Part shown: in pieces, positions 32,470 to 64,000 of the stretch
How positions within the stretch are numbered: position 1 is the first letter of the stretch
How the letters are laid out: each line of letters begins with the position of its first letter
Origin: Asterias amurensis
Taxonomy: Eukaryota; Echinodermata; Asteroidea; Forcipulatida; Asteriidae
Assembly (NCBI RefSeq): GCF_032118995.1
Contig: NC_092652.1
Location: forward strand, 20,878,544-20,942,543
Direction: 5' to 3'
Length of the DNA: 64,000 nucleotides
The notes under the pieces: model-generated
The model's database searches: none
What the model saw: only the letters and a program-made list of their open reading frames with translations
Told to the model about the DNA's origin: nothing
Translations under genes and position numbers: made by a program

Positions 32470-32608
32470 ATGAACGATATGGCAAACATGTATTGTCGTC
32501 CAGATGATTCTTGCTTCACTGTCAAGGCTTCTGATGAACTATGTGCAAACTTCCCCAAGTTACCAGACATCCCAATCAATTGTGACGGTCCTTGTTGCGG
32601 TACTTGCG
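32470..32608 (+). CDS. Gene A exon 1: Cys-rich extracellular segment of a small membrane protein
   Basis: First coding exon of a complete three-coding-exon gene whose joined frame is exactly 393 nt (130 residues). It encodes residues 1-46 with Cys at 9, 15, 25, 38, 42, 43 and 46, containing YCRPDDSC, DELCANFPKLPDIPINC and PCCGTC. An in-frame TAA lies just upstream of ATG 32,470, so the protein starts here (or at the ATGs of Met4 or Met7) with no cleavable signal peptide. The likely topology is N-terminus outside, with the later helix as signal anchor. The exon begins after a strong acceptor at about 32,210 (TTTCCTCATTTCAG|CATGG), implying an upstream 5'UTR exon; a tiny upstream ORF (ATG 32,212) precedes the start. 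The donor is TTGCG|GTAAGT at phase 1. The family is unknown to me; genes B and C are relatives. Confidence 0.82.
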
Positions 32609-32740
32609 GTAAGTACATATTAATAATATCAAAGTCTTGTATTGCGCACGTATCTACCAAACAAGGTACTCAAGGCGCTGAGATATCCAGAAAGATAGGT
32701 CATTGCAGTGATGAATTCTGAGACCCAACTATGTAGCACC

Positions 32741-32950
32741 TCATAAGGGCGCATTAAGCTACGGCGGATTAAGCAGCCACAGCCAGTAACACCGGGGCGA
32801 ACCCCTTCTCTTTTCGATAAGTGCACTGGGTTCTTTTACATGCATTACACAGCACATGGGACCAACATCTTTACGTCCCATCCGAAGGACAAAGCAATGG
32901 TTAAGTTTTTTACTTATAGACACACTGTCACGGCTGGGGATTCAATACAT
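32741..32950 (-). repeat. SINE with a widely conserved central domain
   Basis: The minus strand reads TTGTCCTTCGGATGGGACGT, GTTGGTCCCATGTG, GTAAAAGAACCCAGTGCACT and GAGAAGGGGTTCGCCCCGGT. I recognise this type of block from SINEs across deuterostomes and other metazoans (possibly the Nin-DC/Deu class; name from memory). It lies in gene A intron 1. Confidence 0.7.
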
Positions 32951-33000
32951 GTTACACTGACAGTCATTTGAAAAAGACTCCATGATAAACACAGCACTTA

Positions 33001-33391
33001 TTAAAGGAACACGTTGCCTTAGATCGGTCGAGTCGGTCTTTGAAAAGCGTTCTGTAACCGTTTGTTATAAAATGCATATGGTTAGAAAGATATTGTAAAA
33101 GTAGAATACAATGATCTACACAAATATGCCTCGAAATTGCGTGGATTTCTTTTAACCTCATCGACTAACACGGTCGGCCATTTATGGGAGTCAAAATTTT
33201 GACTCCCATAAATGGCCGACGGTGATAGTTCGCGACGTAAAAGGAAAACCGTGCAATTTTGAGTGATACTTGTGTGGATCAGTATATTCTACTTTTAAAA
33301 CATCTTTCTAACCATATGCATTTCATAACAAACGGTTTCAAACGCTTTGAATAGACCAACTCGTCCGATCCAAGGCAACGTGTTCCTTTAA
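33001..33391. mobile_element. TTAA foldback MITE, AGGAACACG family, copy 3
   Basis: TTAA|AGGAACACGTTGCCTTAG ... CCAAGGCAACGTGTTCCT|TTAA in gene A intron 1. Confidence 0.92.
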
Positions 33392-33429
33392 GAGCAAAGT
33401 AACTGACCCCCAAAAATGTCATTCAAGGG

Positions 33430-33640
33430 CGCCAGTTTGCAAAGTCAAAATCAAAAGTCCAGGTCCAGGATTTAAAATGCTTGTTTGAATTGAAGAGGTG
33501 AGTTTCGAGCTGTTGTTTGAAGATTGAAGGACTGCTCTGTGTTCTGTGGTCCAAGCGGCAGTGAGTTCCAAAGATGCAATGTTAGAGAAAGCTCTGTCAT
33601 GAGAATGAGTACTGTAATCCATCGAACAAGCCCAACTACA
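33430..33640 (-). pseudogene. CR1-like LINE remnant
   Basis: The minus strand encodes LHLWNSLPLGPQNTEQSFNL, resembling the (A)P-x-(L/I)-W-N-S-L-P block near the end of CR1/L2 ORF2. Frames are broken. Confidence 0.45.
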
Positions 33641-34075
33641 ATTTTGCTTGACATTTATTTTATTTTTGACTTTCTGTGGAGGATTTTCAAAGCGAGTACA
33701 ACAAATTACTAAGGCACATTAATCCCATGTAAAAACTTGTTTATTTTTCTCGGGGATGCCCATTGTCTTCCAGATCCGGCCATCTCTTTCGAACAGACTC
33801 CCTAAATGTGCAAGTCTCTAGCGGATGCAAACATTGGGACCTGTTAAACAGTAGACTAAATTCATGAAGCCCTGGGCCCAATTTGATAAATGCCTGTAAG
33901 CACAAAACTTTGCTAAGCACAGAGTAGTATTGCTTAGCAGAATCAGGTTACCAGCCAAAATTACGTTGATGTGGCTGGGTGATCCTCCCTATTGTTAATT
34001 AATTTGGTTGATGACACCCCTCTGAAATTAGGCGTCCTCTGAAATTCCAATTCTTACTCCTTTTTCTTCTTCCAG

Positions 34076-34142
34076 GTTGCACATGGTGGCCATTGATGTG
34101 TGTGCTGTTAGTTCCCATAAGTGTGGGCCTGATGTATTACTT
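34076..34142 (+). CDS. Gene A exon 2: transmembrane helix
   Basis: The acceptor TTCTTCTTCCAG|GTTGC and donor TTACTT|GTGAGT are both good. The exon completes Gly47 and encodes C48, then a hydrophobic helix at about residues 50-69 (WWPLMCVLLVPISVGLMYYL). Phase is 1 in and 2 out, as in gene B exon 2. The TGA just after the donor would end the frame without splicing, so exon 3 is needed for the cytoplasmic tail. Confidence 0.85.
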
Positions 34143-34214
34143 GTGAGTATTCATTACATTAAGTTGGATATTCTAGAAAAGTGTTGTACATACTGACTAT
34201 CTTTTAATTTGTGT

Positions 34215-34640
34215 TTCCTTTCTAATAATAATAATAATAATGGAGTCTTATATAGCGCCGGTATCCGCCACAAAAAAGGGCCTCATTGCGCTCGCTCATG
34301 ATACAAATAAACAGTTCAAAAGAAAGGAACAGAAAAAGTATGTTGAGAGTCGCTGGTCAACACTTATACTTCAAAGAGGTGAGCATTGAGGGCAGTTTTA
34401 AAAGAATATGTCGTATTTGCAGTGGTAAGGAAGACTACTCCACACCTTCCTGATGTTTTAATTGCAATGAGAGAAATTTGGTGTATATGACCCATGACAT
34501 TTGATTGTCGCAGGCCAGTTTATTCGTAAATGCTGGATCTTTTCTCTGGAGTGAACTTCCTTAAGATATTTGTTATATTTCTAATGTTCAGACTTGCAAA
34601 GTTACTTTCAAAAAAACTCACCCTTTCAAGATGTATTTCT
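34215..34640 (-). pseudogene. CR1/L2-like LINE 3' end with (TAA)n tail
   Basis: (AATAAT)n then GGAGTCTTATATAGCGCCGG, the inverse of the CGGCGCTATATAAGAC tail seen in related elements. The adjacent sequence is too decayed to read an ORF. Gene A intron 2. Confidence 0.6.
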
Positions 34641-34754
34641 TTAATTCATAGTTTTGTTGCGTTCCATTGTTAATTTGTTTGTTTTCCTAATTTTTCTTAT
34701 TACGGATATATCCTGTTTTGTTTACATTGTTCCTGCTTCCTTCTCTGGGCCTTG

Positions 34755-34985
34755 AGTAGACTTGTGGACAAGTCGTTAATGTCTGCCGTGGTGAGAAAGT
34801 CGAGTTGTGGCGGTGGGGTGTCACGAGATCACTGCTTTCGCGCGAACTGCTGGTTCTACTCCCCATTAAATGGGACCGTATTCAGTAGTCTCGCGGGGCC
34901 AGCAGTCTCGCAAGAATATCGTAGGAATGGCGGGGAGATTCGGAACGCTATTACCGGGACAGACATTTAACGACTTGTCCACATT
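34755..34985. mobile_element. Foldback element (TAGACTTGTGGACAAGTCG)
   Basis: TAGACTTGTGGACAAGTCGT ... TTTAACGACTTGTCCACA. Same termini as the larger element at 52,685-53,768. Confidence 0.75.
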
Positions 34986-36471
34986 CATTTTATTTGATAA
35001 ATACTTAATATTCAATTCAAAACATTCGCATAACATGTAGTATGTACCTGTTGCCTGCAATTCAAGTGAATACTGTACGCACTCCATTATCATCCGTTGT
35101 TCACAAACATTTCAGAAGGCTATTGTTACGTTTTGACTCTCAAAAAGGCAGAGCATGATAGGCACGTGTAAGTACACTATAAGGCCATGGTCAACATAGA
35201 GAAAGAATGGTTCTTGTGTTTTTAAAACAATGTGTCACTGTCCCCCTTCCTGAAGTTATTCCTAATTATCAACTCTTTGTAAAATATTTGTTCTTAACAC
35301 TTTGCACGTTAACCCTGTCATCTTTAAAAGCTTTTGCACACCATGGGTTCTTGGAAGAGTTTTGTCTGTCCTTACCATGTTTACATGTACCTCTCCTTTT
35401 CATGCTGTGAAATTAATTGGTGATGGTTAATGTTTGATGTTTGCATTGAAAAATATTCACACACTAATTTAGAGAAATCAGCAAGCAGTGGTTTTCTATT
35501 GTTGCTTTTAAAAAGTATAATGCCTATAAAGGCCTAAACTTTTTTAAGGAGGATGAAGTTGGCTGAGTGATCTCTTTCCCCGCCTTTGACCTCTGGGCCC
35601 CTGTCATTTGGGGCTTAACTGCGCTGTTTTGAAACGACTGGCCAGGTTATTTTTTCCTACCCAATTAGTAGTCCAACCCAATGGTGTACGGAGGCTTTAA
35701 TTATGAAGAGCTTGCACCCATCTCTTTCTTTGTACTTGATTTTGTTAATTTCTCTTAACACATAACCACAGGAGGAAACACTATCCAGTGAGAGATAATA
35801 AGCGTGGTGTTGTAAATGATGCATCTGCCGCTCAACCAACGCCCAACTGCAACATTCCATTAGATGCAAAGTAAAGCCGGCATGTCTACTACAGCCAAGC
35901 CCTGAGACACCCCCGAACCCAAGGGCTTCATACACACACCACGCTCATGACCCTCCTTCATGCTCATGTTGGATCTGTCACTCATCTTATTTTGGATTAT
36001 TCCGGTTCGGTTCACTTTGCGCCCCCCCCCCCCCCAAAAAAAACAAAACAAAAAAAACACACACACAAAAACACAAAAAAAAAACAAAAAAAAAAAACAA
36101 CAACAACATGGAAATCAATTTTTTTTTTTCCTGCTTTTGCATCATCAAATTTTTGTCTACCTCTTTGGTATTGAGATCATGCACAATGTGCCTGGAGCAT
36201 CATAGCCAAATGGTATAGCCAAAGTTAATCGGCTCAGTGAGCGTTTTATTAAAATTAAAAAAATTGAATGGGTATCTATTTGTCGTGACCCAGATGGCCT
36301 CTCAATCCCTGTACTACTATAGGTTTGTCAGTTTATGTACATGTGGTACCTAAAGTGCTCACACTACAAACAACTGTTTTGTTAGCGAAAACCAATTCTG
36401 TAATGTTGCTTTAGGTGTAGGAAGGTTTTCAGAAGTTTGTAAGTTAGACCTATCAGTTGTGTGTTGTTTGT
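34986..36471. other. Gene A intron 2, no gene seen
   Basis: Contains C- and A-rich low complexity at 36,022-36,103 that creates false frames. No exon recognised. Confidence 0.5.
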
Positions 36472-36850
36472 TTAAAGGGTCTATGTACTTTTTGTAGGAC
36501 AAAAAACACAATGTCCACAGATTTACACTAAACATACACAGTTTGAAGATAATGATGGTAGAAAGCTTCCCTGAAACTATTACTTGCTGAGGTGCTGTAT
36601 TTTTTGAGAAATGAGTAAAACAATGTTGTCATGAAAATAATTTTCGTCCCAGTGATCATGAGACAAACATTTTAGAATGTAAAAACGTACTTTCATGACA
36701 TTGTTTTACTCATTTCTCAAAAACTACAGCACCTAAGCAACTAATACTTTAAGGTATACGCTTTCTACTATCATTATCTTCAAACTGTAAATTTAATGTA
36801 AATCTGTGGACATTGTGTTTTGTTTTACAAAAAGTACCCAAATCCTTTAA
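36472..36850. mobile_element. TTAA foldback MITE (AGGGTCTATGTACTTTTTG)
   Basis: TTAA|AGGGTCTATGTACTTTTTGT ... CAAAAAGTACCCAAATCCT|TTAA. Inner arms are GAGAAATGAGTAAAACAATG / CATTGTTTTACTCATTTCTC. Gene A intron 2. Confidence 0.88.
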
Positions 36851-37300
36851 AAGTTATTTCATTCCGAGTGTGCGTTTATTTCACTTATCACCGTGGTGTT
36901 TATATTTTCCCCTCTCCATGTACTTCTTAAAGTACATTTAGTGGTTATATTTACAACTCGCAAGCATTTTTTTGTGGTACTTTTGTGTTTTTAAACAAAA
37001 GTTGGGTTGCTGTTTGATTTTGAAGTTAATTAATACTAAATATTGTTTCATTGTTCATGCTGTATAGACCGTATTGTTTGATGTCACTAATTCAAACATC
37101 TACCCTATAACATGGTGTCAGTAAGCGCGTGCGTGTAGGTGTGCATGCATGTTCCATAGAAATCAAACTGGGAACGCTGCGTGCTGCGTGCTTCATTGAT
37201 GTACAGGTTTTTACGTGCATTCGGCCTGCCCTACAATATTACCACTTTTATGAACAAAGGGGTTATTCGATACGGTCTATAGAGAGAGAAACAACATTTT

Positions 37301-37676
37301 TTAAAGGCAGTGGACACTATTGGTAATTACTCGAAATAATTATTGGCATTAGACCTTACTTGGTAAAGAGTAATGGGTAGAGGTTGATGGTAAAAAACAT
37401 TGTGAGAAATGGCTCCCTCTGAAGTAACATAGCAAGAAGTAATTTGATTTTGAGACCTCGGATTTATAATTTGAGGTCTCGAAATCAAGCATCTGAAAGC
37501 ACACAACTTCGTGTGACAAGGGTGTTTTTTCTTTCATTATTATCTCGCAACTTGATTGCGACCGATTGAGCTCAAATTTTAACAGGTTTGTTATTTTATG
37601 CATATGTTGCGATACACCAAGGTCCAAGTGAGAGGACTGGTCTTTGACAATTACCAATAGTGTCCAGTGTCTTTAA
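37301..37676. mobile_element. TTAA MITE, AGGCAGTGG family
   Basis: TTAA|AGGCAGTGGACACTATTGG ... CCAATAGTGTCCAGTGTCT|TTAA, gene A intron 2. Confidence 0.9.
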
Positions 37677-37919
37677 ACATATTTATTCGCCTTTTATTTT
37701 TGTAATTTTGTTTTCCTATTTGCCATCCAATTTATAACACAGGTTTTTTCTAACCTGCACTTCATCACTCGTTCTTAGATTACCTCCACTGTAAAATATA
37801 ATTCATAAAATGTATGGTTTTCTTCTTTGTGTGTAAGTTAATATCAAAATTAAACATAGATTATTTATCGATGCGGTACTCTCTGCCAAAACATAGGGTT
37901 CGAACTGCCACTAGCTGCC

Positions 37920-38080
37920 GGGCAATCTCGGTAGTCTAGTTGGTAAGACACTGCTCTAGAATAACAAGGGTCATGGGTTTGAATCCCATCCGAGTAATAT
38001 GCCTGTGGAAATTATTTCCAGGGACTCGGGAAAGTGCTGAGTGTACAGAGCTAACACACACTGGTTCAAGGGTAAACAAA
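37920..38080 (+). repeat. tRNA-derived SINE
   Basis: The head has an A box (TAGTCTAGTTGGTAAGACAC) and B box (GGGTTTGAATCCCATC), then a body with GGGACTCGGGAAAGTGCTGA and GTGTACAGAGCTAACACAC. A SINE rather than a functional tRNA. Confidence 0.72.
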
Positions 38081-38737
38081 ACAAAATTAATACGTTTATC
38101 AAGATTGTATGTTTTACTATTATTGTTAAAAGGTTTGTAAGATCCTGGTACTGTATTTATTCAAGATTGCATTTTTGAAAAGTTTGTATAGACACTTATT
38201 ATGTGTCCGTCCTGAATGTAAAATCAGTATGGGACTGTAGGGGGCTTACTGCTTGCTATTCAGGAAGTGCTGACTGGAAATCTGTTTTGCTGGGTTACAG
38301 CCTCGCTACCATGAGCCGCCTACAAATCCTATCTCATTAATGCTGATTGGCTCATATAATAGACTGTTTTGCCCACAATATGCTTATGGTGCAGGCCTGA
38401 TGCTTCTCAGAGGCAACAAAGGGGATTGCCTCCATGCCCCTATGATCATTGCCTTGGTGCCCTTGAAATGCTAATAGAGTGCCCTTTACCCAGGAGAAAA
38501 TGCCTTGGTGCCTTTGGGATCCTTTCAAAAACGAAGCATACAAGCTTGGTGGAACTGCAAACCTTGCCAAATGATCATCAAGGCATTGTTTCGTAAAGCA
38601 TATACACAAGCACAAAATCTTGCTAAGTACAGAAAACTCTTACTAAGCAAGAAATAGCCCACCAGCTAAGATACCGTACATTTACCATTTAAAACTGGAC
38701 ATCAAAATGTCGATGGCTTTCGTTTTCTTTTCACCAG

Positions 38738-38924
38738 GAAACGGCATGTATTCCCCTTTATTGAGCAACTTGGTGGGTCTACATGTGATATGGAGAGTAT
38801 TGACTTAAAAAACCACCCAGATTCTTCACAATTGGACAGTGCACCAGCAGGCAGCACACAGGCAGGCAATAGCGGGGAGTCGGGGGCCTTGCGTGGCGAT
38901 GTGGCAGTACATCATATGGAATGA
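38738..38924 (+). CDS. Gene A exon 3: cytoplasmic tail and stop
   Basis: The acceptor CTTTTCACCAG|GAAACGG restores the phase-2 frame. The exon encodes the end of the helix, a basic stop-transfer (LKRH) and a hydrophilic tail: VFPFIEQLGG, DMESIDLKNHPDSSQLD, a Ser/Gly/Ala-rich stretch, and VAVHHME before TGA. The tail is about 60 residues with no recognised signalling domain. A candidate AATAAA is at 39,702-39,707. Intron 2 is about 4.6 kb and full of repeats. Single-frame openness, exact phase and the overall length divisible by three support the model. Confidence 0.82.
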
Positions 38925-40007
38925 AATGTTTCAGCGCCTTAGGACCTCTATGTAAAGAAGCCTTCCACTGCTTAAATACATGTGCCCACAGCCCATCCTT
39001 TTGAAGCTTGGGCAATACCTCTTCTTTTCAACAACGATGTATTTATCGTCAAGAATACATCGTGATTTTTTGTTTAAAGTGGCATAAATTCAGAGGTGTT
39101 AAAGTGACTATAACAGAGAATTAGTATAAAATTCAATCATGTATATCTGGTTTTATATTTCCTTACTCTACACATTGTAACTGTGTTAAAAACCAGTGAT
39201 AATAATTCAGTGATGGTCAAACTGTGAGGTGTATGTCTCATCACCAAGTAGACTCACTCTTATTGGCTTTCACTCGAAGTACATGAAAAATGTTGACGGC
39301 TGAAACAGTGAGTGGGCGACTGGACGCGCTAGAATTCGATAGATCGACTGTTGCAGTCTTTAAGAACGACTCTGGAGTGTCTAGGGTTAGACGTCGATCT
39401 TGTCATGAGCTGATCCAATGTAAATTTTGTTAAGTTAGCCTGGCTGACACAAACATTTATTTGGGTTGACTAAGAGTCGCTCATAATCTATTTGGTTGGC
39501 GCGACTCTGGCGCACCTGTCTGAAACTGGTATTAGTTATGTAGTTGATTCTTCAAAAGAATTAAAATAATTTGTGTACATTGTAAAATGCAATGTATATT
39601 TCTGACCCCCTTTATTTCCTGTTGTAAAACAACATTATTTTGAGATAACCTCACAGTGAAACTGTGTCTGTGTACACCTTTAAAACGAAAGTATACTTTT
39701 AAATAAAGATTTTTTATATACAATAAAACTAACCTGAGAAAATTTCATTTCAAAAGGTGGTCATGTTTTTTTGAGATGACCACAAAATTCTGGAGCAATG
39801 TCCATGCACAAAGAATAATCCATAATTGGAATCGGAATGTGAGAGATGTTACTGCCAGTAATGCTTCTCACATTCAAATGTTTGGGGATTACAGCTTGCT
39901 TTCCCTCTTTACCACATTACATCAAAGTGAAATGATTCTCAAAATACTTTATACTAACGAAAGCTGCTGTAAACTTTTAACCAAGTAACTATTTATTGCC
40001 ATCAATT
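38925..40007. other. 3' region of gene A and intergenic, no other gene seen
   Basis: AATAAA at 39,702 is a candidate poly(A) signal. No further coding exon recognised. Confidence 0.45.
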
Positions 40008-40357
40008 TTAAAGGCAGTGGACACTTATTGGTAACTATTACAAATAATTGTTAGCATAAAAAACTTTCTTGGTAACAAGTAATGGAGAGCTGTTGATAGT
40101 ATAAAACATTATGAGAAACGGCTCCCTCTGAAGTAACGTAGTTTCCAAGAAAGAAGTTATTTTCCACAAATTTGATTTCGAGACCTCAGAATTAGATTTT
40201 TAAGGTCTTGGAAGCACGCAACTTTGTGTGACAAGAGTGTCACTATCATTATTATCTTGCAACTTCGATGAGGTTTGTTATTTTATGCATATGTTGAGAT
40301 ACACCAAGTGAAAAGACTGGTCTTTGACAATTACCAATAGCGTCCAGAGTCTTTGAG
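40008..40357. mobile_element. TTAA MITE, AGGCAGTGG family
   Basis: Left TTAA|AGGCAGTGGACACTTATTGG; the right end CCAATAGCGTCCAGAGTCT is followed by TTGA instead of TTAA. Confidence 0.82.
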
Positions 40358-43085: not shown

Positions 43086-43769
43086 TTAAAGGAACACGTT
43101 GCCTTGGATCGGACGAGTTGGTCAAAACAAAAGCGTTTGTAACCGTTTTTTATAAAATGCATATGGTTGGAAAGATGTTTTAAAAGTAGAATACAATGAT
43201 CCACACAAGTTTGCCTCGAAATTGCGTGGTTTTCCTTCTACTGTGCGAACTAACATGGTCGGCCATTTATGGGGGTCAAAATTTTGACCCCCATAAATGG
43301 CCGACGTGTTAGTCGACGATGTAAAAGGAAAACCACGCAATTTCGAGGCATGTTTGTGTGGATCATTGTATTCTACTTTTACAACATCTTTCTACCCATA
43401 TGTATTTTATAAAAAACGGTTACAAACGCTTTTCAAAGACCAACTCGACCGATCCAAGGCAACGTGTTCCTTAGTCTTGGTTCCAAGACCATTGGTGTTG
43501 CGCGGTCACACACAGCCAACGTTCCGATTATGCACGGCAAAAACTGTCCACGCTTGTAATGAACGAACGCTAGCGGGCGCTGTTTCTCTGATTTACGGAT
43601 CTCACCATGTCCTGTGCTCACCATGAGATCTAAATCAGAGAAACAGAGCGCCCGCTAGCGTTCGTTCATTACAAGCGTGAACAGTTTTTGCCGTGCATAA
43701 TCGGAACGTTGGTTGTGTGTGACCGCGCAACACCAATGGTCTTGTGACCAAGACTACGTGTTCCTTTAA
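43086..43769. mobile_element. TTAA foldback MITE, AGGAACACG family, copy 4, interrupted
   Basis: TTAA|AGGAACACGTTGCC ... GGCAACGTGTTCCT|TTAA, split 10 bp before its right end by the MULE-like element below. Confidence 0.92.
43473..43755. mobile_element. MULE-like foldback element nested in the MITE
   Basis: AGTCTTGGTTCCAAGACCAT ... ATGGTCTTGTGACCAAGACT with arms of about 130 bp. Flanked by ACGTGTTCCTT (43,462-43,472 and 43,756-43,766). If the element is read as TAGTCTTGG...CCAAGACTA, the duplication is the 9-bp CGTGTTCCT, matching the other copy's 9 bp. Confidence 0.88.
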
Positions 43770-44461: not shown

Positions 44462-44579
44462 ATGGACACCGTCAACTTCTGCAGGCCCCTAGCCCTGGGT
44501 GAAACAGTTTGCCACAATGTCACATGTAATGTGTCCTTCATGTCACCACTGCCTGAACTTCCACCACTATTCAGCTGCA
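44462..44579 (+). CDS. Gene B exon 1: extracellular N-terminus
   Basis: Encodes residues 1-39: MDTVNFCRPLALGETVCHNV then TCNVS and PLPELPPLFSC. Two N-glycosylation sequons (N19-V-T, N23-V-S) imply that this end is outside the cell, although there is no signal peptide. I chose the donor CTGCA|GTAACT (phase 1) over a nearby AG|GTGCTT because only phase 1 joins the membrane-helix frame of exon 2, and it matches gene A. Gene C repeats the GETVCHNVTC block as SETVCHNISC, and both carry GACCACTG shortly before the ATG. An acceptor-like TTCTTCTTCAG lies about 80 bp upstream, so a 5'UTR exon is likely. The three exons total 564 nt (187 residues plus stop). Confidence 0.75.
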
Positions 44580-45835: not shown

Positions 45836-45869
45836 TGTAATAGTTGAATGGATTTCATAAAACTTAACA

Positions 45870-46627: not shown

Positions 46628-46835
46628 ATACAGATCTGCCATCATGTGTCCGTGCCACCACTGTGCCTCCGACAGACAACCTTACTACTATGAGCAGTTC
46701 TGCTACATCTGGTCCTGGTAGTGATGGAAGTACATGTGATGAAACATGTATTGCTGTAATACTATGCCTATCAGTCCTACTGGTAGTACTAATAGCACTA
46801 GCAGTACTACTGCACATGTACTGCAACAAGACAGG
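46628..46835 (+). CDS. Gene B exon 2: Ser/Thr-rich stalk and transmembrane helix
   Basis: The acceptor is TTGATCCAACAG|ATACAG and the donor ACAGG|GTAAGA, phase 1 in and 2 out. It encodes a stalk (DLPSCVRATTVPPTDNLTTM, then SSSATSGPGSDGS) with a third sequon (N57-L-T) and likely O-glycosylation, then CDETC and a helix at about residues 81-101 (IAVILCLSVLLVVLIALAVL), ending HMYCNKTG. Gene A has the same order (Cys-rich segment, helix) with a much shorter stalk. I cannot exclude a further exon inside the 2-kb intron 1. Confidence 0.85.
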
Positions 46836-47231: not shown

Positions 47232-47469
47232 GCTATTCAAGAATCGAAAGGCCCCTAGCAAATATGAAAGTTCGAGAGAATTTGACCGATCAAATTCTGC
47301 TGAACAAATTCTCTCTCAAGAGCAGCACAATAACCAGCGCATTGAAATGCTGGAGAGCCATCAGCATTCTTCAAACAAGGATAACAATGATTTACATGAT
47401 GCAACAATAGTGGTAGGAATGAAAGACCCAGAACCGGGAACAACTCCTGAAATGAGTGTCTACCTTTAA
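47232..47469 (+). CDS. Gene B exon 3: cytoplasmic tail and stop
   Basis: The acceptor TTTTATTTGCAG|GCTATTC restores the frame. It encodes a basic juxtamembrane stretch (LFKNRKAPSKYESS), a Glu/Gln/Asn/His-rich region (SAEQILSQEQHNNQRIEMLE) and a C-terminus EPGTTPEMSVYL before TAA. The last four residues SVYL resemble a class II PDZ-binding tail (hydrophobic at -2 and 0) and Tyr residues are available; both points are inference. The 3'UTR begins with a foldback repeat (47,480-47,720). Confidence 0.85.
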
Positions 47470-47720: not shown

Positions 47721-49643
47721 GGCTGCATGAAGTGCAGGGTGATGACAACGGGGTGTAGGAAGTTTTCAAGATGGCAATGAAGTTAAAACGTTTATTGAAT
47801 TACATGCAACCCCAGCGCGTGAATCCAATCTGAGAAACGTTACTGTCGGTAACACTTGTCAGATTCAAATTTTTGTAATTTATAAATAGTTGTTTTCCAT
47901 ATAAACTGCAGTACTTTGAAGTGAAAGTTTTGCTCAAAAAGCATTTATGGGAAACTGGTTCGGTTGAGTTAGCCAATGAAAAGCTTTTGAACCCGTTTGT
48001 TATAAAATGCATATGGTTAGAAAGATGTTTTAAAACTATAAAAGTATGTGTTGTTTAAGTATTAGTTTCTTTTGGAAGTTCTTTAATTGAATTGTTTGAT
48101 TTATGAAAAATCTTGCCAGGGCCCACTGATACTTGATTTTGCATAGAGCTTTATTTTTCTCTTATTAAACCTGAAAAGTTCTAGTCAATCTGAAGTGTTG
48201 TTATTGAAGGTAAAATATACAGTATTACAAGTAAGCCTGACATTTTTACCCTATATCTGAGTTTCTCAGAACGCTAAAAATTATGCCTTACTGTGAAGGG
48301 GTGATTTATTAAGACTTTGATAATGACTCTGCAAGGGTCGAAACGTCGACCACTTGATTCTTGTTGCATATAGCATTATGTCCTTTTGGATGGTGAGCAG
48401 TTTGCAATAACTTCTATTGAAAGTATTACAGAGATTACTTCCAAGTATTTTGCTTAATATTGTACTGTACGTTGTGCTACAAAATTATTTAAAACAAATG
48501 TTTTTGATAAAATGCATTGATGTAAATCATAATGATATATATATATATTTTTATCATATATTGTTATGCTCTATATTGAATCAAATTATTTTCAATGTAA
48601 AATAAGTACTCAAATAAAAACTTAGATTACAAAGGCTATAGCAGCTTGTATTCGGTGGAGGTTGCTTAGCCTCGTTTATCTGCTTAGCCTCGTTTATCTG
48701 CATGGTCACTCTGTCAGGTACGATGTAAAAGACAAAACTGAGGGTTTGAAACAAATATTGTGTTTTTTTATTGACTGTGAACAAAAAAGAGAGAAACAAG
48801 AACAAAGACTATGTTTATCTGTACAAATTTACAAAAGTATCTTTTGAACGCCAACATTTTGGCCCGATTTTAGTCTACGAGAAAGACCTTTCTATGGGAG
48901 GGACGAACCATCAAGCCATGACTTATGTTTTACATTTATACCGTCCTTTTTGTTGGTAAGCCGTTTGAAACATTAATTCTATTTTCGTTTGGAAGCATGC
49001 AGAATATTATATCAAAAATAAAGTTAGTGTACCGTAAGTTGTGCTACAAAACACGAAGATGCCTTTTGATAATAATAAATATGTATATATACTGTAAATA
49101 ATAGTGATTTTATCCCCCCTGGAAATGATCATGTTATTTATTATTATGTTATCTTTATGTTTTTGTTTTGATGTGTATGGATCAAACTATTTTATTCTAA
49201 AAATGTGCGCTCGATTATTGCATTAAATAATTATGTATTAACAACTTTTCTTCAGATAAAAGTATTATGCCTGTATAAGACTTATTTTAATTTTACTTTC
49301 CCAACAAAATGTAGCCTTAAAATACTAAAGCATTGCGCACACGTACAACTTTGTAAATGGTTCAACTTGATCCCGTAACCTTAATGCATGCATGTGATAG
49401 ACTTGCAATTATTTAGTCTCAGACGGGGACATCAACCAGTTCCCGTCAATCTTCAAAAAGAAGGGCGTTCACATTTTAATGTTCAGTTATTTTTTTAGGG
49501 ATCGTAATACATTGTTTGAAAAAAAAAAATACTCGTGTGCTATACCAATGTGGTTCTGTAGCATGCACTGCAGTTGGTTGCCCACAAGTTGCCTGTAAAA
49601 TTTACCTCCTGCATGTGACAATGCCCCAGATGTGATGGGGCAG
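47721..49643. other. Intergenic after gene B, no gene seen
   Basis: 47,990-48,045 is a fragment of the AGGAACACG MITE (TATAAAATGCATATGGTTAG). 48,322-48,352 carries GACTCTGCAAGGGTCGAAAC followed by GTC, a motif seen in Penelope-like elements. Confidence 0.45.
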
Positions 49644-51081: not shown

Positions 51082-52050
51082 TTAAAGTCACCTGGAAGTG
51101 GTATTTTTTCAAAATAAAGCTTTTGTCACTAATATATGTGTTTTGATGAGTGGAATGTGAATAAACAGTTAACTAAGGTTTTAAACAATAAGTTATTATG
51201 TTATTTACAAATTTAAGAGTAGACCCCGACCCGAGAGGGCGCTGTTCGTGACGTCAATCGAGGCAGACTTTGCCTGTAATGCGTAGAGTAAACACAATTG
51301 CAAAGTACATGTACGGACCAAGTTTTTGTACGTTTCAAAAAAAAAGAAAAAAAAAATGTTTTTTTTTCCGGTAATGCCGACCAGGTGTATTGCTGCTGAA
51401 TGCATAAAAAACACTTTTTGAAATGTACCAACTCACGACTTAAAGGAACACGTTGCCTTGGATCGGTCGAGTTGGTCTTTGAAAAGCGTTTGTAACCGTT
51501 TTTTATAAAATGCATATGGGTAGAAAGATGTTGTAAAAGTAGAATACAATGATCCACACAAACATGCCTCGAAATTGCGTGGTTTTCCTTTTACCTCGTC
51601 GACTAACACGTCGGCCATTTATGGGGGTCAAAATTTTGACTCCCATAAATGGCCGACCATGTTAGTTCGCACAGTAGAAGGAAAACCACGCAATTTCGAG
51701 ACAAACTTGTGTGGATCATTGTATTCTACTTTTAAAACATCTTTCCAACCATATGCATTTTATAAAAAACGGTTACAAACGCTTTTGTTTTGACCAACTC
51801 GTCCGATCCAAGGCAACGTGTTCCTTTAAACGTACATGTACTTTGCACGTGTGTTTACTAGCATTGCAGGCAAAGTCTGTCTCGATTGACGTCACAAAAG
51901 GGGTAGGCGGAGTCAGCCCCCAAACAACTTTATATATTTTTTAAACATATAAATCGTGACAAACAATTACTAAACAAATTGTTTTATTGTTCGTAAGCAT
52001 ATACTCTTATGTTCGAAAGAAAAAAAAATTCTATTTCCAGGTGACTTTAA
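51082..52050. mobile_element. TTAA foldback element (AGTCACCTGGAA), interrupted at its centre
   Basis: TTAA|AGTCACCTGGAAGTGG ... TATTTCCAGGTGACT|TTAA. The arms share GTACATGTAC, GCAAAGT(C/A) and TCGATTGACGTCAC in inverse order. A complete AGGAACACG MITE is inserted between the arms. Confidence 0.82.
51440..51829. mobile_element. TTAA foldback MITE, AGGAACACG family, copy 5 (nested)
   Basis: TTAA|AGGAACACGTTGCCTTGG ... CCAAGGCAACGTGTTCCT|TTAA, nested in the element above. Confidence 0.92.
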
Positions 52051-52148
52051 AACATTTTTAGTAAGACGCGAATTAATTTGCCATACAATGAGTCAACACC
52101 TTATCATCAATCTAATGATGTTGATTTTGTTTGATGTAGTTATCATAA

Positions 52149-55625: not shown

Positions 55626-55648
55626 TATAGTATAGGTTTTTTTTTTTA

Positions 55649-56455: not shown

Positions 56456-56724
56456 GGGTGCGGGTATTTTTTATTTTATTTTTACAAAGAGAAAGCTTGC
56501 TCAGGTAGTATGGGAAGTATCGGAAACCGCTGTAGTTTAATGGGTTTTTCCATCATGACCCTTTGTACTCGTGTGACTTCCACACAGTTTATACCGGGTT
56601 TACGCTTCTGTTATTTCCATTCTTTGGCAAGCCAAAGTTCCTTTGTGTTATAGGCCTATATATGATATCTTGACTCCCCAAATGGCGGGAACTATATAAA
56701 ATGCACATGCAAGTGCACCAGTCG

Positions 56725-57114
56725 TTAAAGGAACACTTTGCCTTGGATCGGACGAGTTGGTCTATAAAAAGCGTTTGTAACCATTTTTTATAAAATGCAT
56801 ATGGTTGGAAAGATGTTTTAAAAGTAGAATACAATGATCCACACAAGCTTGCCTCGAAATTGCGTGGTTTTCCTTTTACTGTGCGAACTAACACGGTCGG
56901 CCATTTATGGGAGTCAACAATTTGACTCCCATAAATGGCCGACCGTGTTAGTCGACGAGGTAAAACAAAAACCACGCAATTTCGAGGCATGTTTGTGTGG
57001 ATCATTGTATTCTACTTTTACAACATCTTTCTGCCCATATGCATTTTCTAAAAAACGGTTACAAACGCTTTTCAAAGACCAGCTCGACCGATCCAAGGCA
57101 ACGTGTTCCTATAA
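56725..57114. mobile_element. TTAA foldback MITE, AGGAACACG family, copy 6
   Basis: Left TTAA|AGGAACACTTTGCCTTGG; the right end CCAAGGCAACGTGTTCCT is followed by ATAA, so the right TTAA has mutated. Confidence 0.9.
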
Positions 57115-58710
57115 TCGATCCCTATACGACGTGGAATGAAACGAATCTTAGACTAAACTCATTTTTGACCATGTCCGATTGGCGGCCAGCGATGACCAGT
57201 GATCGCCGCGTCATCAATAAATTATAGGACACCTTAAAATACGCATTCTGATCTGGGTGTTTATTTTGAATCTCAAAATGGTGGAAAGGATAGGCATGTG
57301 AAAGTGCACTCCGCGTCGCAATGAGCGTCTTTTGGGGCTGGGGTAAGCAGATAATTATTAGACTAGACTTGATGTCCAGTCTGAGACTGTGTATTTATTT
57401 ATCAGCATCACCCCCGCCCCTCCCCACCCTCCACTCGCGTAGATTGGCTATCACGCGCTTTAACTCAATAGCTACTGAGCGGGGGTGAGGATAATCCACA
57501 TGATGGCGCTATTTCAGGGTACACTGTGTTCAGGCAATCAGGTACACACCACACAAAGACACACAGCTGTGTTAATGGTGCAGACCAAGGAATTCTCTTT
57601 GTTCTCCCATTGTTTGGACACAGTTTATTTTTCAGACGTTCCCTGTGGTTTTGTACACAAAATCTACCGAGGACTGTCCCCGGTGTGACTTTTTCCCGGA
57701 TCCCTTTTGTTTAAGTCCTCGGTTATCAATGGTAGCCATGCCCACGACCACACAGTTTTGAAACCAGAACACTTAGGCAGAATTTGGGAACTTCTCAATC
57801 CCCCTTTCTTTTTTGCTACATAGCAAAATATGAATGCATTAAAAATATCTGTTCGTATTGTGCACAGTAATTGTACACACTTGTTTATAAACTGGATTGG
57901 GGAAGGAAGTATAATATTGTATGCATTTAGCATAAAAGAAGTTAGCCGGAATAGGATGGGGAAGTATCGAATTAACCTAGAACCATAACCAAGACACACA
58001 AAAAAAAGAACCATTTCGACAGAAGACTGGATGGTAAGCAACAGAACGCAGAGTCACGTTTCCTATTCACTGGAATCTCTACAAAATGTATGAAGCATAT
58101 TTTCACAATCATGGAGGAAGTTGGTGGTTATATAATCAGGGGGTGTGCCACGCATCTAGAGATAATTCCGACTCCACAAAAGGCTCATTTGGACGATAAC
58201 AAGGAATGAAAATACAATACAGATGCTTCTGTATAATGTATTTTGAGAAACATTATACGATATATAGATGAAATGTTTTATAAACCAAAATGTGCAAAAA
58301 CACAAGAAAATCGTAATTTTGCAGATTAAAGCCAATTTAATTTAACATTCAATTTCACACAAAAAATGAAATGGTTAAAATAAATAAAAGTGCAAATAAT
58401 TTTACATTATTATTGTATTGAATTGTATTTTTTTATTTATTTATTTATTTTTTTTTTTTCAAGAAGGAGCTTAAATTTCTGTAAATTCCCAAAAAATTAT
58501 TGAAGGTATGCCTACAAACCACAGCAGTTCAAATATTTTCATTTAAGGGTCATTCCATGTCAGACCAACGCAGTTTTTTACCTCATGTCTTCCGATTTTG
58601 ATAAAAATTGCTGTGCTTGTAGGTCCTTATGAGTAATGAATGCACAGCCATTTTTTAGCGCGATCGGACTTACCTTGTGGTCAGGGCAGACACCACTGTG
58701 ACATTCAACT
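57115..58710. other. Intergenic, no gene seen
   Basis: (TTTA)n at about 58,430-58,450. No SDR motif (TGxxxGIG, NNAG) was found although the SDR gene lies downstream. Confidence 0.45.
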
Positions 58711-59398
58711 GTGACATTTTTAGGGTAAAATAACACCTTTTTGGTAAAAATATGTCATAACCATGTCAATTCTCATCACATATTATATGCAAACTTGGTA
58801 TCAAAATGATGAGAACTGCATGCTCAAATCAATTCTTTTGTCAAAAAGAAATTTTCTGAAATGTAGGTCACTGTAATCTTGAATATGTTATTGTGACCTT
58901 TGACCCAGTTTTTGAAATAATGTATCATTCCAAAAATCAATGAAATAAAAATCTCTTGATAGATTATGTCTTCCTCTATCAGAATCCACTTAGAATCAGT
59001 TGGGCTCTTCAAAAATTACAACTTTGTAACTATTTTTGTACAAGTCACTGTGATCTTTAATATGTTATTTTGACCTTTGACCCAATTTTTAAAACAATGC
59101 ATCATTCCAAAAATCAGCAAAATAAAAATCACTTGATAGGAAGACATTCTCCATTAAGTGATTTTTATTTCATTGATTTTTTGAATGATACATTATTTCA
59201 AAAATGGGGTCAAAGGTCACGATAACGTATTAAAGATTACAGTGACCTACATTTCAGAAAAATTATTTTTGACAAAAGAATTGATTTGAGCATGCAATTC
59301 TGATCATTTTGATACCAAATTTGCATATATGTGATAAAAATTGACAAGGTTATGACATATTTTTGCCCAAAAGGTGTTATTTTACCCTAAAAATGTCG
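58711..59398. repeat. Large 690-bp palindrome with internal direct repeat
   Basis: GTGACATTTTTAGGGTAAAA, then TAACACC pairs with GGTGTTATTTTACCCTAAAA. The left arm also holds two direct copies of a block containing TGACCTTTGACCCA and CATTCCAAAAATCA (58,867-58,964 and 59,045-59,140). Confidence 0.85.
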
Positions 59399-59429
59399 TC
59401 GTTTCCCCAGATAAACCTAGAATGTATCC

Positions 59430-59690
59430 CTTAGTTTATTTGGGCCAACCCATATTGGGCCCATATCAATCTTTTCATGCGGGATGAAATGGTGCCCTTA
59501 TGGGTTACCCCATATGTTAGCCCATAATGGGACCCATATTTTGTCGCATTTGGCCCATGTGGGACCCATGTTGGTTATATGGACCTACCCATGTGCTCCT
59601 ATATGAATCAGTTCAAGATCAGCAGGGGCCATATGGATTAACCCATGTGGTACCCCATATCTTGGCCCATTCGGACCCATGTGAACGAAT
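59430..59690. repeat. Degenerate array of GGGCCCATATGGG-type motifs
   Basis: GGCCCATAT, ACCCATGTGG, CCCCATAT and GGGACCCAT variants recur roughly every 15-25 bp. The frame 59,527-59,775 is built from them. Confidence 0.7.
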
Positions 59691-60122
59691 GCTACCTGTG
59701 ATATGCGTGTATATTGGTCAATCAGGGAACGAAAGCCGAATCAATATAATCCACAAAGTCATCTGCAAGGGTTGATGGTCAGAACAGTTGAGCAATTTAA
59801 TATTATTTAAGTCTCCCATTGGCCCAATATAACATAACTTCTTCTCTTTAGCAATCAAGTTAAGGCATGAGTTAAAAAGCTGTTAAAAGTTTTCCAGACA
59901 AAGTGCAAGGAGCCCCCTATATACATCAAACGCCGTAAAACAAAACAAAAATAAAAAAATGCAGTGTTTTGGTTTTGCATTACAATAACGTTCAATTGGT
60001 AACACCTGTGATTGGTATTCCGAAAAAAATATATACCCAATAAAAATTTTTGGACAAATTCTTGGACAGTTTAATCGCTGGACTTGACAAAAAAAAATTA
60101 ATTTCTTTTTTATTGGTTACAG

Positions 60123-60219
60123 GTGTTCCTTTCTTTGCCACCTATACATCTTCAAAGTTTGCCGTTGAGGGCTTCTCCGAATCCATTGCTTCAGTATTGC
60201 GTGACGCATACAATATCAG
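60123..60219 (+). CDS. Short-chain dehydrogenase/reductase, exon with YxxxK active site
   Basis: The exon reads GVPFFATYTSSKFAVEGFSE then SIASVLRDAYNIR after a clean acceptor (TTTTTATTGGTTACAG) and before CAG|GTAAAC, phase 1 in and 2 out. YTSSK is the catalytic Tyr-x-x-x-Lys of classical SDR enzymes, and the following F-A-x-E-G-F-x-E-S helix is typical of the retinol dehydrogenase 8 / 17-beta-HSD1 group, NADP(H)-using oxidoreductases of retinoids or steroids. The substrate cannot be told from this fragment. The Rossmann N-terminal half (TGxxxGIG, NNAG) was not found between 47.5 and 60 kb. Confidence 0.88.
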
Positions 60220-60282
60220 GTAAACTCAACTATTATGATTCATATTGTTTGAATCTTTGCATGCTGTTGATAAATAGAAAGG

Positions 60283-60495
60283 AACTATAAATTAAATGCA
60301 AACTTGTGGGTAAAACCTTGTTCATTTTGTTCAAGCTTAAACTTAAGCTCAACCACCAGCAGTAGTCCAGCATTCTCCCGAAGACGAGCAGACAGTTCAA
60401 AACGTCGAGACCCACACCGGTTCTTGTCATAGCCATCACTCCCTATAAAGAGATGTACATGTGGTTGTTGTACCCACAAGTTTACTCTTTATTTA
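60283..60495. mobile_element. Foldback element with AAAACGTC motif, copy 2, SDR intron
   Basis: ATGCAAACTTGTGGGTAAAA ... TACCCACAAGTTTACTC outside; CCCGAAGACGAGCAGACAGT and TCAAAACGTCGAGACCC inside. Related to 42,145-42,345. Confidence 0.65.
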
Positions 60496-60747
60496 AAAAA
60501 AATCCGATAATATTATGATTCGGTCGGAGGCTATGGGTTTTCGCAGAAAAGCGAACTTTGTCACACGATAGCCAAGCTTGAGTTTTAGATGTGGGCGGAA
60601 AACTCCAGAGAGTTATTCAAAAGAAAACCCATGCAATCAGGTAGTGACTGAAAAGGCAGGTCCACATGGGTGCCCCCTATAGTGAAATTCGAACCAGGGT
60701 TGAAGAGGTGGAAGTTTATTACGAATTTTGTTTATTATTTTCTGAAG

Positions 60748-61057
60748 AGTTTCCATCGTGGAGCCAGGACCAGTGGCGACACCGCTTGCAGTGATAAAGG
60801 CTAATGACAAGCCAACTTTCGATGGCTTCGAAGCCGACAAGGAGAAAGTCTATTCCATTCGCCTCAAGTACCTGAAGAGTCTGTCTCACGTCTTCCAGAC
60901 GTCTGAGGAAATAGCACAGTTGCATCGAGAGATAATACTCAGCGAAAATCCGCGTATGCGGTACCAGAGTAGTGAGTACGTGAAGGAGATCGCCGCAGCC
61001 AAGTTCAAGGATACAATTACAGATGATGTCCTCAATGAATTGAAGCGGAGCATATAA
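60748..61057 (+). CDS. Short-chain dehydrogenase/reductase, C-terminal exon
   Basis: It joins the previous exon at phase 2 (AG|A gives Arg) and reads VSIVEPGPVATPLAVI, matching the V-x-(I/L)-x-E-P-G-P-V-x-T segment of RDH8/17-beta-HSD1-type SDRs, where it contacts the cofactor. The remainder is a helical C-terminal lid: FEADKEKVYSIRLKYLKSL, then TSEEIAQLHREIILSENPRM, ending LNELKRSI before TAA. Together the exons give about 135 residues, the expected C-terminal half of a roughly 300-residue enzyme. AATAAA follows at 61,070. The frame is intact, so it is either a live gene with unrecognised upstream exons or a young remnant. Confidence 0.88.
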
Positions 61058-61069
61058 TAGATCCAAAGC

Positions 61070-61075
61070 AATAAA
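61070..61075 (+). promoter_or_regulatory. Polyadenylation signal of the SDR gene
   Basis: AATAAA 13 bp after the stop codon; close, but the only good candidate before the next repeat. Confidence 0.45.
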
Positions 61076-61230
61076 ATAGGTCAGATTCAGACTTTAACTC
61101 TTTCTAAAATAATGCTTAGTACATAAAGTGTTTTGCTATCGAAGGAAGAACAAGTTGGGCCTACTACGTACTAGCAGTTGATTTATTCACTGGCCCAATT
61201 TCATAGAGCTGCTTAAACAGAAAATATTGC

Positions 61231-61620
61231 TTAAAGGAAGACGTTGCCTTGGATCGGTCGAGTTGGTCTTTGAAAAGCGTTTGTAACCGTTTTTTATAAA
61301 ATGCATATGGGTAGAAAGATGTTGTAAAAGTAGAATACAATGATCCACACAAACATGCCTCGAAATTGCGTGGTTTTCCTTTTACCTTGTCGACTAACAC
61401 GTCGGCCATTTATGGGGGTCAAAATTTTGACTCCCATATATGGCCGACCATGTTAGTTCGCACAGTAGAAGGAAAACCACGCAATTTCGAGGCAAACTTG
61501 TGTGGATCATTGTATTCTACTTTTAAAACATCTTTCCAACCATATGCATTTTATAAAAAACGGTTACAAACGCTTTTGTTTTGACCAACTCGTCCGATCC
61601 AAGGCAACGTGTTCCTTTAA
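61231..61620. mobile_element. TTAA foldback MITE, AGGAACACG family, copy 7 (nested)
   Basis: TTAA|AGGAAGACGTTGCCTTGG ... CCAAGGCAACGTGTTCCT|TTAA. Nearly identical to copy 5. Confidence 0.92.
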
Positions 61621-61694
61621 CAGCTTTCTGCTATGAAAGCTGAAATTACCATTACACCGGTTACAAATTGTACGTCACACGGTATAGTTTTACC

Positions 61695-62192
61695 CATAGA
61701 GCTATATATATTGACTAGAGCGCTAACTTGCTCTGCGTTTTGAAGCCACCCTGGGCGCAGACATGTTTGGTGTGTTGCGTGAATTCGGAATTTTAAGAGA
61801 ACCCACATTGCCGCGATTATTTTACATTAGGCGTGTGCGTATACGTACGCAACTTTCCACTCGCGTACGTCCGCGCTACGAAAACCGTAACTTCGACTAT
61901 TGGTTGCCGTACTAAAAAAAGGTAAACGCGCCTTTTAATCATGACGCACATGACGCTCGCAGTTTGTACGCTGATCAGCAGATTGTGCGTTCACATTTAC
62001 GGCATTTTTTGCTTCGATGGCACATAAAAAAGAACAGACGCACGATCATGCAAACAGCCGTACAATTGCCGTACAAAATTTCAAGCTTTTGTATTGGTTT
62101 GTACATAAACATGGATGCGCCCACACTGCTTCAAAACCTTAGTGCGTGTATAACGGGTTGTTAGCGCTCTAGTCAATATATATAGCTCTATG
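61695..62192. mobile_element. 8-bp-duplication transposon (CATAGAGCTATATATATTG)
   Basis: Perfect inverted termini of about 32 bp, starting CATAGAGCTATATATATTGA and running through CTAGAGCGCTAAC, flanked by GTTTTACC at 61,687-61,694 and 62,193-62,200. hAT-like by duplication length; non-autonomous. Confidence 0.9.
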
Positions 62193-62289
62193 GTTTTACC
62201 CCTAATTCTGGTAAGCATAGTTTTGTACTTAGCCACTTTTTGTGCTTAAATGCAGCTTTATGAAATTGTACTCTGGGCCCAAAAGAGCT

Positions 62290-62533
62290 GGGCCCAATTT
62301 CATAGAGCTGCTTAATCACAAAATTTTGCTTGGGCAAAAAAATACTTGCTTAGTAAAATCAGATTACCGGCCAAGACTCCACTCAATTGTTACGCTAAGT
62401 AAACAGCAGCTAAATACCAGTCACAAGCAATGTACATGGCATGAAATTTTGGCCAGTAACATGTGTAAAATAAGCGAGCTATTTTCGTGCTTAAGCAAAT
62501 ATTTTGCTTAAGCAGCTCTATGAAATTGGCCCC
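62290..62533. mobile_element. GGGCCCAATTTCAT-family foldback MITE
   Basis: GGGCCCAATTTCATAGAGCT, then GCTTAA pairs with TTAAGCAGCTCTATGAAATT, then GGCCCC. Pieces of the family also occur near 13,060, 21,680 and 33,886. Confidence 0.85.
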
Positions 62534-63880
62534 TGCCTTAAAGCACAACAAAATTGCTTAGCATGAAATTTCTACCTCTAGTAATTAAACCAGGATGACT
62601 AACCACATTTCCACGTATTCGAACATTATGACCAGATAAATTGTACGGGTTTCCTCTCCATGGACGTGTGACGTGACCAAAGTGTTCCCCAAATTTCGCG
62701 CAAATTTACGAATTTCCGGGACCAGTTGGTTCCATTTAAACTGTGACATCTTTTCTAAATCAAACTTCAATTTTGGGGCTTAACAATTAATATCTTGTTT
62801 ACATACTCCGAAGTGAAATGTTTCCTAAAAAATTAATATACTATCGAAATCTGCTGTTATAGACTTCTTCCAATAGTCTGCATTGCCATTAGTTTTAGCG
62901 ATTACCAAACGATACCTCCCCTCACGTTGCATTACACAACTGATAAAGTTTCATGTGCGCGATTCTGTTTCTTCAATTACTTTATTCTATTTCTTAAACT
63001 CCCTTGTGGTTTAACGTAGTTTCTTTGCTGTAATCATATTGTTGGGAAACTAGTTTGCCGTTATTATGTCGAAGTAAAGTAAATTTGTCAATATGACTTG
63101 AAAAAAAAATGTGTTATTCCTTTTTCATTCTTTCTTTTGTAGAAGTATTAAAAAACGCATAAACTTACTCTACCAGAAATTAACCAGATTCATGGTATGG
63201 TAAAACATTGAGTGGGTTTTCACATGTGGTATTTATATTGAACGATTCGACTCATGACCTTTATTGTAGCGGTAAATTTCTAGCCTTGGTTTGAAGGCGC
63301 TCGCGGCTTCCTAGAAAAAAGAAAGAAAGAAAAACACGAACAGCGCCAACACTGGTGCTCGCGCGGTTTGTGTTTTATTATTGCAGAGGGGAATTCCCTA
63401 TCGCCACTGGGCCCATCAAAACAAATACATGTAAAGTTTTATTTGCTATAAGACTTCGACCTTTGCTTTAGGCTAAAGTGACGCCCAAACTAGAATTTGA
63501 GTATAGAATTATACATCGTTCATCCGCTTGGTACATTACATTTAGCATTTCGAGGGACCCCACAGCCATGGCATGCACCCGGGATGTTCTTTTTGTTATC
63601 CAGATATTAAGTCTGCTGGTGCAGAACTAAGTGTCTGGATGCCAAAAGTCAAGGGCAGTGATGTATGAAAGGCATAATTGTTGATGTAAGAATAGTTGTT
63701 GTTGTGGTTCACCAGGAAATATCATTTGCTGCTCACATCAGATGATGGCCAGCAACAGTGTTGCATGACAGGATTACAGTGTATATAACGCATCTACATC
63801 ACCGTCCTGTACACATTGTTCTAGTTTGTTGTTGTTGTTGTTTTGTTTATCGACCACTGAGGGTTTCAACAAGACCAATC
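62534..63880. other. Intergenic before gene C, no other gene seen
   Basis: Should hold the gene C promoter and any 5'UTR exon. (GTT)n at about 63,824-63,843. A 61-codon minus-strand frame at 62,585-62,770 has no family match I recognise. Confidence 0.4.
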
Positions 63881-64000
63881 ATGGCTAATGGAATTGCCAA
63901 CGTCGTCAGCTTTTGCCAACCTCTGGGCACCAGTGAGACAGTTTGTCACAACATTTCCTGCAGCAGATGGATACTTGAGCTGCCATTACTTCCGCCAATA
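63881..64000 (+). CDS. Gene C exon 1 (partial at window end), paralogue of gene B
   Basis: Encodes MANGIANVVSFCQPLGTSET then VCHNISC and LELPLLPPI, open to the last base. It matches gene B exon 1 in the FC(R/Q)P block, the SETVCHN(I/V)(S/T)C block with the same N-glycosylation sequon, and a Pro/Leu-rich end. GACCACTG occurs about 30 bp before the ATG, as in gene B. No signal peptide. By analogy the exon should end within a few codons and be followed by helix and tail exons beyond the window. Confidence 0.75.
   Translation, partial: MANGIANVVSFCQPLGTSETVCHNISCSRWILELPLLPPI

Follow-up and report, generated by a model that had tools for sequence, protein, structure and literature searches.

A tandem cluster of fast-changing genes for small, predicted single-pass membrane proteins was found at a single locus on an apparent Asterias amurensis chromosome. 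Eight first exons were counted in the 353 kb searched, namely those of genes A and B and of six C-type genes (C1–C6), and the original prediction of a three-member family was therefore wrong. A, B, and C1 to C6 share a layout of three exons with intron phases 1 then 2, and the predicted products range from 102 to 383 residues. We tentatively propose, with confidence just short of even, that they are small type III membrane receptors encoded at one locus, the C group comprising signaling and short-tailed members. As had been supposed earlier, no named family was found for these proteins in Pfam, among PDB sequences, or among folds matched against the C1 exon-1 model; Pfam gave no match for A or C2 and only unrelated matches below the cut-off for B and C1. 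At the level of titles and abstract openings, the literature yielded no described family of this kind, and one may still exist in print. Genome-wide pairwise searches, which could miss divergent copies, found no further members elsewhere in the genome.

Gene Structures and Topology

The gene models and their phases can be read directly from the DNA. Genes A and B lie within the window (the whole stretch of 64,000 nucleotides analyzed), on the + strand. In gene A, exon 1 (32470..32608) carries the start codon and a Cys-rich segment with seven Cys residues and ends in phase 1. Exon 2 (34076..34142), running from phase 1 to phase 2, encodes the transmembrane helix CTWWPLMCVLLVPISVGLMYY, whose mean hydropathy is 1.82 over 19 residues. 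The hydrophilic tail of the 130-residue model is encoded by a last exon at 38738..38924, in frame with phase 2. An alternative last exon at 35772..35874, also in frame with phase 2 and absent from the original prediction, would give a 102-residue form. AATAAA occurs at 39702 and 39722, downstream of the exon at 38738..38924; between the stop of the alternative exon and position 38737 there is no AATAAA, only ATTAAA. Gene B consists of exon 1 (44462..44579; start codon and a Cys-rich segment, ending in phase 1), exon 2 (46628..46835; a Ser/Thr-rich stalk and the transmembrane helix, mean hydropathy 3.46), and exon 3 (47232..47469; hydrophilic tail and stop), with AATAAA on its 3' side at 48613. 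When rebuilt, gene A was identical to the model first drawn up, and both genes were confirmed to have three coding exons each in phases 1 then 2 and coding sequences of 393 nt (130 residues) for A and 564 nt (187 residues) for B.

Exon 1 of C1, the first of the six C-type first exons, spans 63881..64016 on the + strand, its last 16 bases lying beyond the window end at 64000, and was matched at 20942424-20942561 in the genome-wide search. Extended past position 64,000, this gene is completed by exons 2 and 3 at 68796-69093 and 69392-69791 (window numbering, outside the window), with the layout of A and B (phases 1 and 2) and a product of 277 residues. A small candidate exon seen by eye at about 64164-64207 (window numbering), 3' of C1 exon 1, was dismissed as an incomplete repeat of exon 1 and its intron; the frame is complete without it.

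Hydropathy and charge predict a single helix with the N terminus outside in six models of five genes, the net charge of the helix flanks being +1 to +5 on the inner side and 0 to −3 on the outer side. This agrees with the topology proposed earlier from glycosylation sequons, an argument that is itself weak: B carries a further sequon in the part predicted to lie inside, and the outer sides of A, C2, and C4 lack sequons altogether. The proposed lack of a signal peptide is confirmed for A and B, because an in-frame stop starts only 6 nt (A) and 24 nt (B) upstream of the ATG and no AG intervenes. For C1 to C6, the closest stop in frame starts 105–138 nt upstream of the ATG, and 4 to 7 AGs fall within this interval, so that an upstream coding exon is possible in these genes.

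Relationship of the A, B, and C Genes

Leave-one-out profile searches were run against 12,059 ORF fragments from the 353 kb, with reversed DNA as the control. A profile built from B and four of the C copies, with A left out, found A exon 1 at E = 0.0019 (best in reversed DNA, 0.094), and A alone as the query found C4, C2, and C5 at E values of 0.0011–0.0043 (reversed best, 1.4). A and B are identical at 9 of 33 aligned residues, and exon 1 of B shares 48.6% identity with that of C1 in a 35-column alignment. The kinship of A to B and C is supported by the profiles and the common intron phases, in line with the single family first suggested, but genome-wide pairwise searches with E values up to 10 joined A to C in neither direction, which, like the low identity of A and B, speaks against the link. 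A weak B-like peptide at 20337 (E 0.16) was judged a chance match after its context was read. A profile of B alone matched at −87303 with an E value of 0.0089 (reversed DNA, 0.25), which became 0.17 once C was added.

The DNA downstream of five first exons, 5.2 kb for C1 and 3.5 kb for A, B, C2, and C4, was scanned by fixed rules for an exon that encodes a helix and is entered in phase 1 and left in phase 2. Exactly one exon end was found after each of the five. Among control stretches, 15 of the 858 spanning 3.5 kb and 24 of the 855 spanning 5.2 kb gave a hit; these controls were drawn at random and with overlaps from those 353 kb and are not independent. An earlier scan with other splice-site rules had recovered only A and C1 (2 of 5; controls, 16 of 523); exon 2 of A is recovered by both rule sets, and that of B by the revised rules only. 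A helix exon follows the first exons more often than expected by chance, in a scan that was not blind because the rules were changed after the result of two in five had been seen.

Organization and Sequence Change of the C Array

All six C-type models are intact, with an open frame across their three exons and intron phases of 1 and 2, and one fragment (Cx), which has no exon 1, accompanies them. The tails carry two YEEI/YEGI modules in C1, four in C3, and one in C4; C2, C5, and C6 have none, and their short tails are followed by module remnants in broken frames. The tails of A and B are devoid of YxxI/L/V, and a YFKV close to the membrane in C2 matches this motif as well, so the proposed division into signaling and decoy members is not clean. 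C1 contains 2 YxxI/L/V motifs against 0.71 expected from shuffles, a small excess due to one duplicated module. C6 is a hybrid, with an exon 1 of the C1 type followed by exons 2 and 3 of the C2 type. The C2 helix has no charged residue. The structure model of C1 exon 1 comprises a two-strand hairpin and a short helix (mean pLDDT 70.6, pTM 0.32) without a significant PDB match; the prediction for A exon 1 was poor (pLDDT 48.4, no hairpin).

Among the older paralogues, synonymous change is saturated and non-synonymous change is lower (C1 versus B, pS 0.75 and pN 0.36; C1 versus A, pS 1.0 and pN 0.46; 33–45 codons aligned at the protein level), which we count as coding constraint. Exon 1 of the close C copies differs by 0 synonymous changes in six pairs and by 1 to 4 non-synonymous ones, and dN (0.20) is close to dS (0.167) between C1 and C2. 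This pattern may reflect diversifying selection or relaxed constraint, which are indistinguishable here. C1 and C2 hardly differ over the opening 23 codons of exon 1, and the tails of C1 and C3 give a dN of 0.021 and a dS of 0.042.

Proposed Function and Alternative Readings

Here, we propose how such receptors might work. Exon 1 would form a Cys-rich knob that binds a ligand or partner, exon 2 would supply a stalk of variable length and the helix, and exon 3 would supply the cytoplasmic tail. In the long-tailed C1, C3, and C4, the one to four tyrosine modules (YEEIGN/YEGISN) would recruit SH2 proteins once phosphorylated. The short-tailed C2, C5, and C6, which stop before the modules, may act as decoys or modulators that bind the same partner but send no such signal. 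Tandem duplication and recombination could reshuffle outer and inner parts, as exemplified by C6. We infer expression, surface location, binding, phosphorylation, and the decoy role. If expressed, the genes would constitute a receptor family without a match in the libraries searched and in the midst of tandem expansion, and a compact case in which knob, stalk, and tyrosine tail lie on separate phase-matched exons open to recombination. They would also be candidates for a system of immunity or self-recognition in the starfish, whose animal group is not known to have adaptive immunity. Small genes with long introns of this sort are easily missed by annotation.

A reading as partly decayed copies, in which A and B are real genes but the C array consists for the most part of non-functional genes or of an assembly duplicate, is unlikely. 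The array units are 97–98.6% identical over blocks of at least 2 kb, so some may be unmerged haplotypes, and C2 has neither AATAAA nor ATTAAA within 2.5 kb (C4 has ATTAAA only). Decay would also fit Cx, the module remnants, the similar dN and dS between C types, and the purely non-synonymous differences between close copies, but the six open models, the lower dN than dS in the C1 and C3 tails, and the nearly unchanged start of exon 1 argue against it. An identity as small membrane adaptors or chaperone-like proteins of the Shisa/STMC6 or WBP1 style, working inside the secretory pathway and not as receptors, appears distinctly improbable. Such proteins share a short Cys-rich outer part adjoining one helix and a variable tail, and A contains a CCGTC stretch that resembles one in Shisa proteins. 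However, CCxxC was found in A alone across the exon-1 alignment and the joined models, Pfam gave no match to that family, and PPxY is absent from the six tails checked; rapid tandem turnover would moreover be unusual in housekeeping adaptors.

We regard as very improbable that the proteins are divergent TNF receptors of the BCMA/BAFF-R/TACI branch that bind a starfish TNF-type ligand, although the layouts are alike. According to PMC5360319, these receptors have no signal peptide, an outside N terminus, one helix, and a small Cys-rich outer part, BCMA having a single Cys-rich domain, BAFF-R an incomplete one, and TACI two; the BCMA gene has three exons and two introns (PMC8832753). The starfish genes resemble them in exon number, in the predicted type III layout with a small Cys-rich outer part, and in the missing signal peptide of A and B, and the hairpin modeled for C1 would fit as well. 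By contrast, neither a TNF-receptor Cys-rich domain nor a TRAF2-type tail motif was detected: the TNF-receptor model is absent from the Pfam matches, no TNF receptor is among the PDB matches, profile comparison with BCMA by hhalign gave 0.3% probability, and TNFR_c6 matches 14 places in the genome with E values no higher than 0.001, of which this chromosome holds none. The major and minor TRAF2 patterns are absent from all six tails scanned, which belong to genes A, B, C1, C2, and C4, and one TRAF6-like motif occurs in C1 against 0.4 expected. Inspection by eye showed no DxL at the turn of the hairpin in C (motif residues D and L from PMC5360319). Further differences are the Thr/Pro-rich stalk and, in part of the C group, the tyrosine modules. 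These comparisons argue against membership in the branch, with a sequence test of limited sensitivity, since BCMA itself reaches TACI only at E 0.14. A rather doubtful elaboration of the receptor proposal is that the starfish independently evolved BCMA-like signal-less mini-receptors and expanded them as a signaling/decoy array, in which unequal crossing-over swaps the ligand-binding exon between signaling and non-signaling tails and alters the number of tyrosine modules.

The small type III receptors proposed here may also be compared with clusters of paired activating/inhibitory or decoy receptors. The starfish genes differ in having no immunoglobulin or lectin domain (Pfam), no charge in the C2 helix, and no signal peptide seen. 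They are similar in the tandem arrangement, the near-identical outer parts with a tyrosine-bearing or short tail, and the occurrence of an outer/inner hybrid, here C6.

Gene models and the C array

Genes A and B, predicted to encode small Cys-rich single-pass membrane proteins, were rebuilt from the DNA as in-frame models of 393 and 564 nt, each with a phase 1 and then a phase 2 intron, which reproduces the original prediction. For gene A, an alternative last exon could lie at 35772–35874, but a canonical AATAAA was found downstream of the originally proposed last exon only. Gene C, for which an extension past 64,000 had been proposed, was completed beyond the window as a 277-aa model (C1) with the same intron phases. 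Its exon 2 encodes a Thr/Pro-rich stalk and the helix, and exon 3 (400 nt) encodes the tail. Because exons 2 and 3 of C1 were invisible when the prediction was made, they confirm the layout independently.

Five more C-type first exons follow C1, at 73785, 81707, 91613, 105258, and 113172 (window numbering), and all six C models are open, with three exons and phases 1 and 2. The products of C1 to C6 are 277, 135, 383, 214, 135, and 133 aa long, respectively. C6 is a hybrid of a C1-type exon 1 with C2-type exons 2 and 3, and a fragment near 100,269 and 100,866 consists of exons 2 and 3 without exon 1. A poly(A) signal was not found within 2.5 kb of the stop codon of C2. Since array blocks of ≥2 kb are mostly 97–98.6% identical (92% in one pair), some of the C copies may be unmerged haplotypes.

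After all five first exons tested, a rule-based scan found exactly one helix-exon end with the right phases and hydropathy (controls, 15/858 and 24/855), under rules altered once an earlier set had given 2/5 (controls, 16/523), so that the 5/5 result is not blind. The same-frame stop starts 6 nt (A) or 24 nt (B) 5' of the ATG with no AG in between, and thus a 5' coding exon cannot be spliced on. The nearest stop in the six C genes starts 105–138 nt upstream of the ATG; as AGs intervene, a 5' coding exon would be possible there.

Family size and the relationship of A to B and C

The family was originally thought to have three members. A profile search of 353 kb around the window gave eight first exons (A, B, and six C) and nothing further better than E = 0.25, the best value with reversed DNA. 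The window lies on a contig of 28.0 Mb, in an assembly of 491,506,623 bases and 23 contigs. Whole-genome searches at E up to 10, whose counts are lower bounds, placed the C1 first exon at seven sites (B plus the six C genes); with the A first exon as query, A itself was the one match. These pairwise searches did not connect the A and C first exons, and equally divergent members elsewhere could therefore escape.

Direct identity between A and B is low (9/33 residues). Among 12,059 ORF fragments from the 353 kb, a profile built from B plus four of the C copies, with A left out, ranked A as the top non-member (E = 0.0019; next non-member, 0.17; reversed DNA, 0.094). As the sole query, A matched C4 (0.0011), C2 (0.0039), C5 (0.0043), and C6 (0.052), with a reversed-DNA best of 1.4, and an A + B profile recovered every one of the six C genes (E ≤ 1.2e-9). 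Together with the common intron phases, these matches give moderate support to the proposal that A is a relative of B and C. Over just 33–38 codons aligned at the protein level, pS and pN were 0.66–0.75 (near saturation) and 0.36 for C versus B, 0.87–1.0 and 0.46 for C versus A, and 0.79 and 0.52 for A versus B; codon position 3 was the most divergent in 5/5 of these pairs. Within the limits of so few codons, this pattern is the mark of old exons retained as protein.

Topology, tails, and a possible receptor array

Sequons had been taken to place the N-terminus outside. This holds for B and C1; B also has an inside sequon, and outside sequons are missing from A, C2, and C4. The net charge flanking the helix is +1 to +5 on the inner side and 0 to −3 on the outer side (six models, five genes).

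The long tails contain YEEIGN/YEGISN modules, two in C1, four in C3, and one in C4, and the tails of C2, C5, and C6 contain none. C2-type tails (51 residues) end ahead of broken-frame module remnants. Phosphorylated YEEI is a preferred ligand of Src-type SH2 domains. A YEEI tail has been used in engineered Src-family kinases (PMC4140816). C1 and C2 are nearly identical over the first 23 codons (pN 0.02) and diverged thereafter (dN 0.45, dS 0.29; few sites). Exon 1 differences among close C copies are all non-synonymous (0 synonymous, six pairs), as expected under relaxed constraint or under diversification. The locus is best read as an array of candidate receptors, in which module-bearing C members would signal and module-less ones would not; expression, surface location, and everything that follows from them are inferred. 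The split is not clean, because C2 retains YFKV adjoining the helix and a motif scan found no such tyrosine motif in the A and B tails.

Neighboring genes and repeats

The last exons of a short-chain dehydrogenase lie between B and C (60119–61057, +; Pfam adh_short, E 1.2e-8 for two manually joined exons). Two flanking genes upstream of the window are possible synteny anchors: one encodes a legume-like lectin (E 1.8e-35; G000:C5 ~20846180–20846540, +), the other a member of the prolyl-oligopeptidase family (E 4.9e-5; G000:C5 ~20821150–20821500, −). By eye, ORFs at 26419–27120 (+) and 5530–6168 (−) resemble fragments of a LINE reverse transcriptase; the first of them had no Pfam match at E 0.01. 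A ladder of self-matches marks a tandem array with a period of ~79 bases (23571–25905). A long inverted-repeat element with ends near AAAGGAACACGTTGCCTTGGATCGG recurs at ~43090–43470, 51440–51830, 56730–57110, and 61210–61620, and by eye looks like a non-autonomous transposon. Downstream of C5, a 254-aa open frame (107889–108650, window numbering), partly repeated after C2 near 76717, is by eye a putative transposase.
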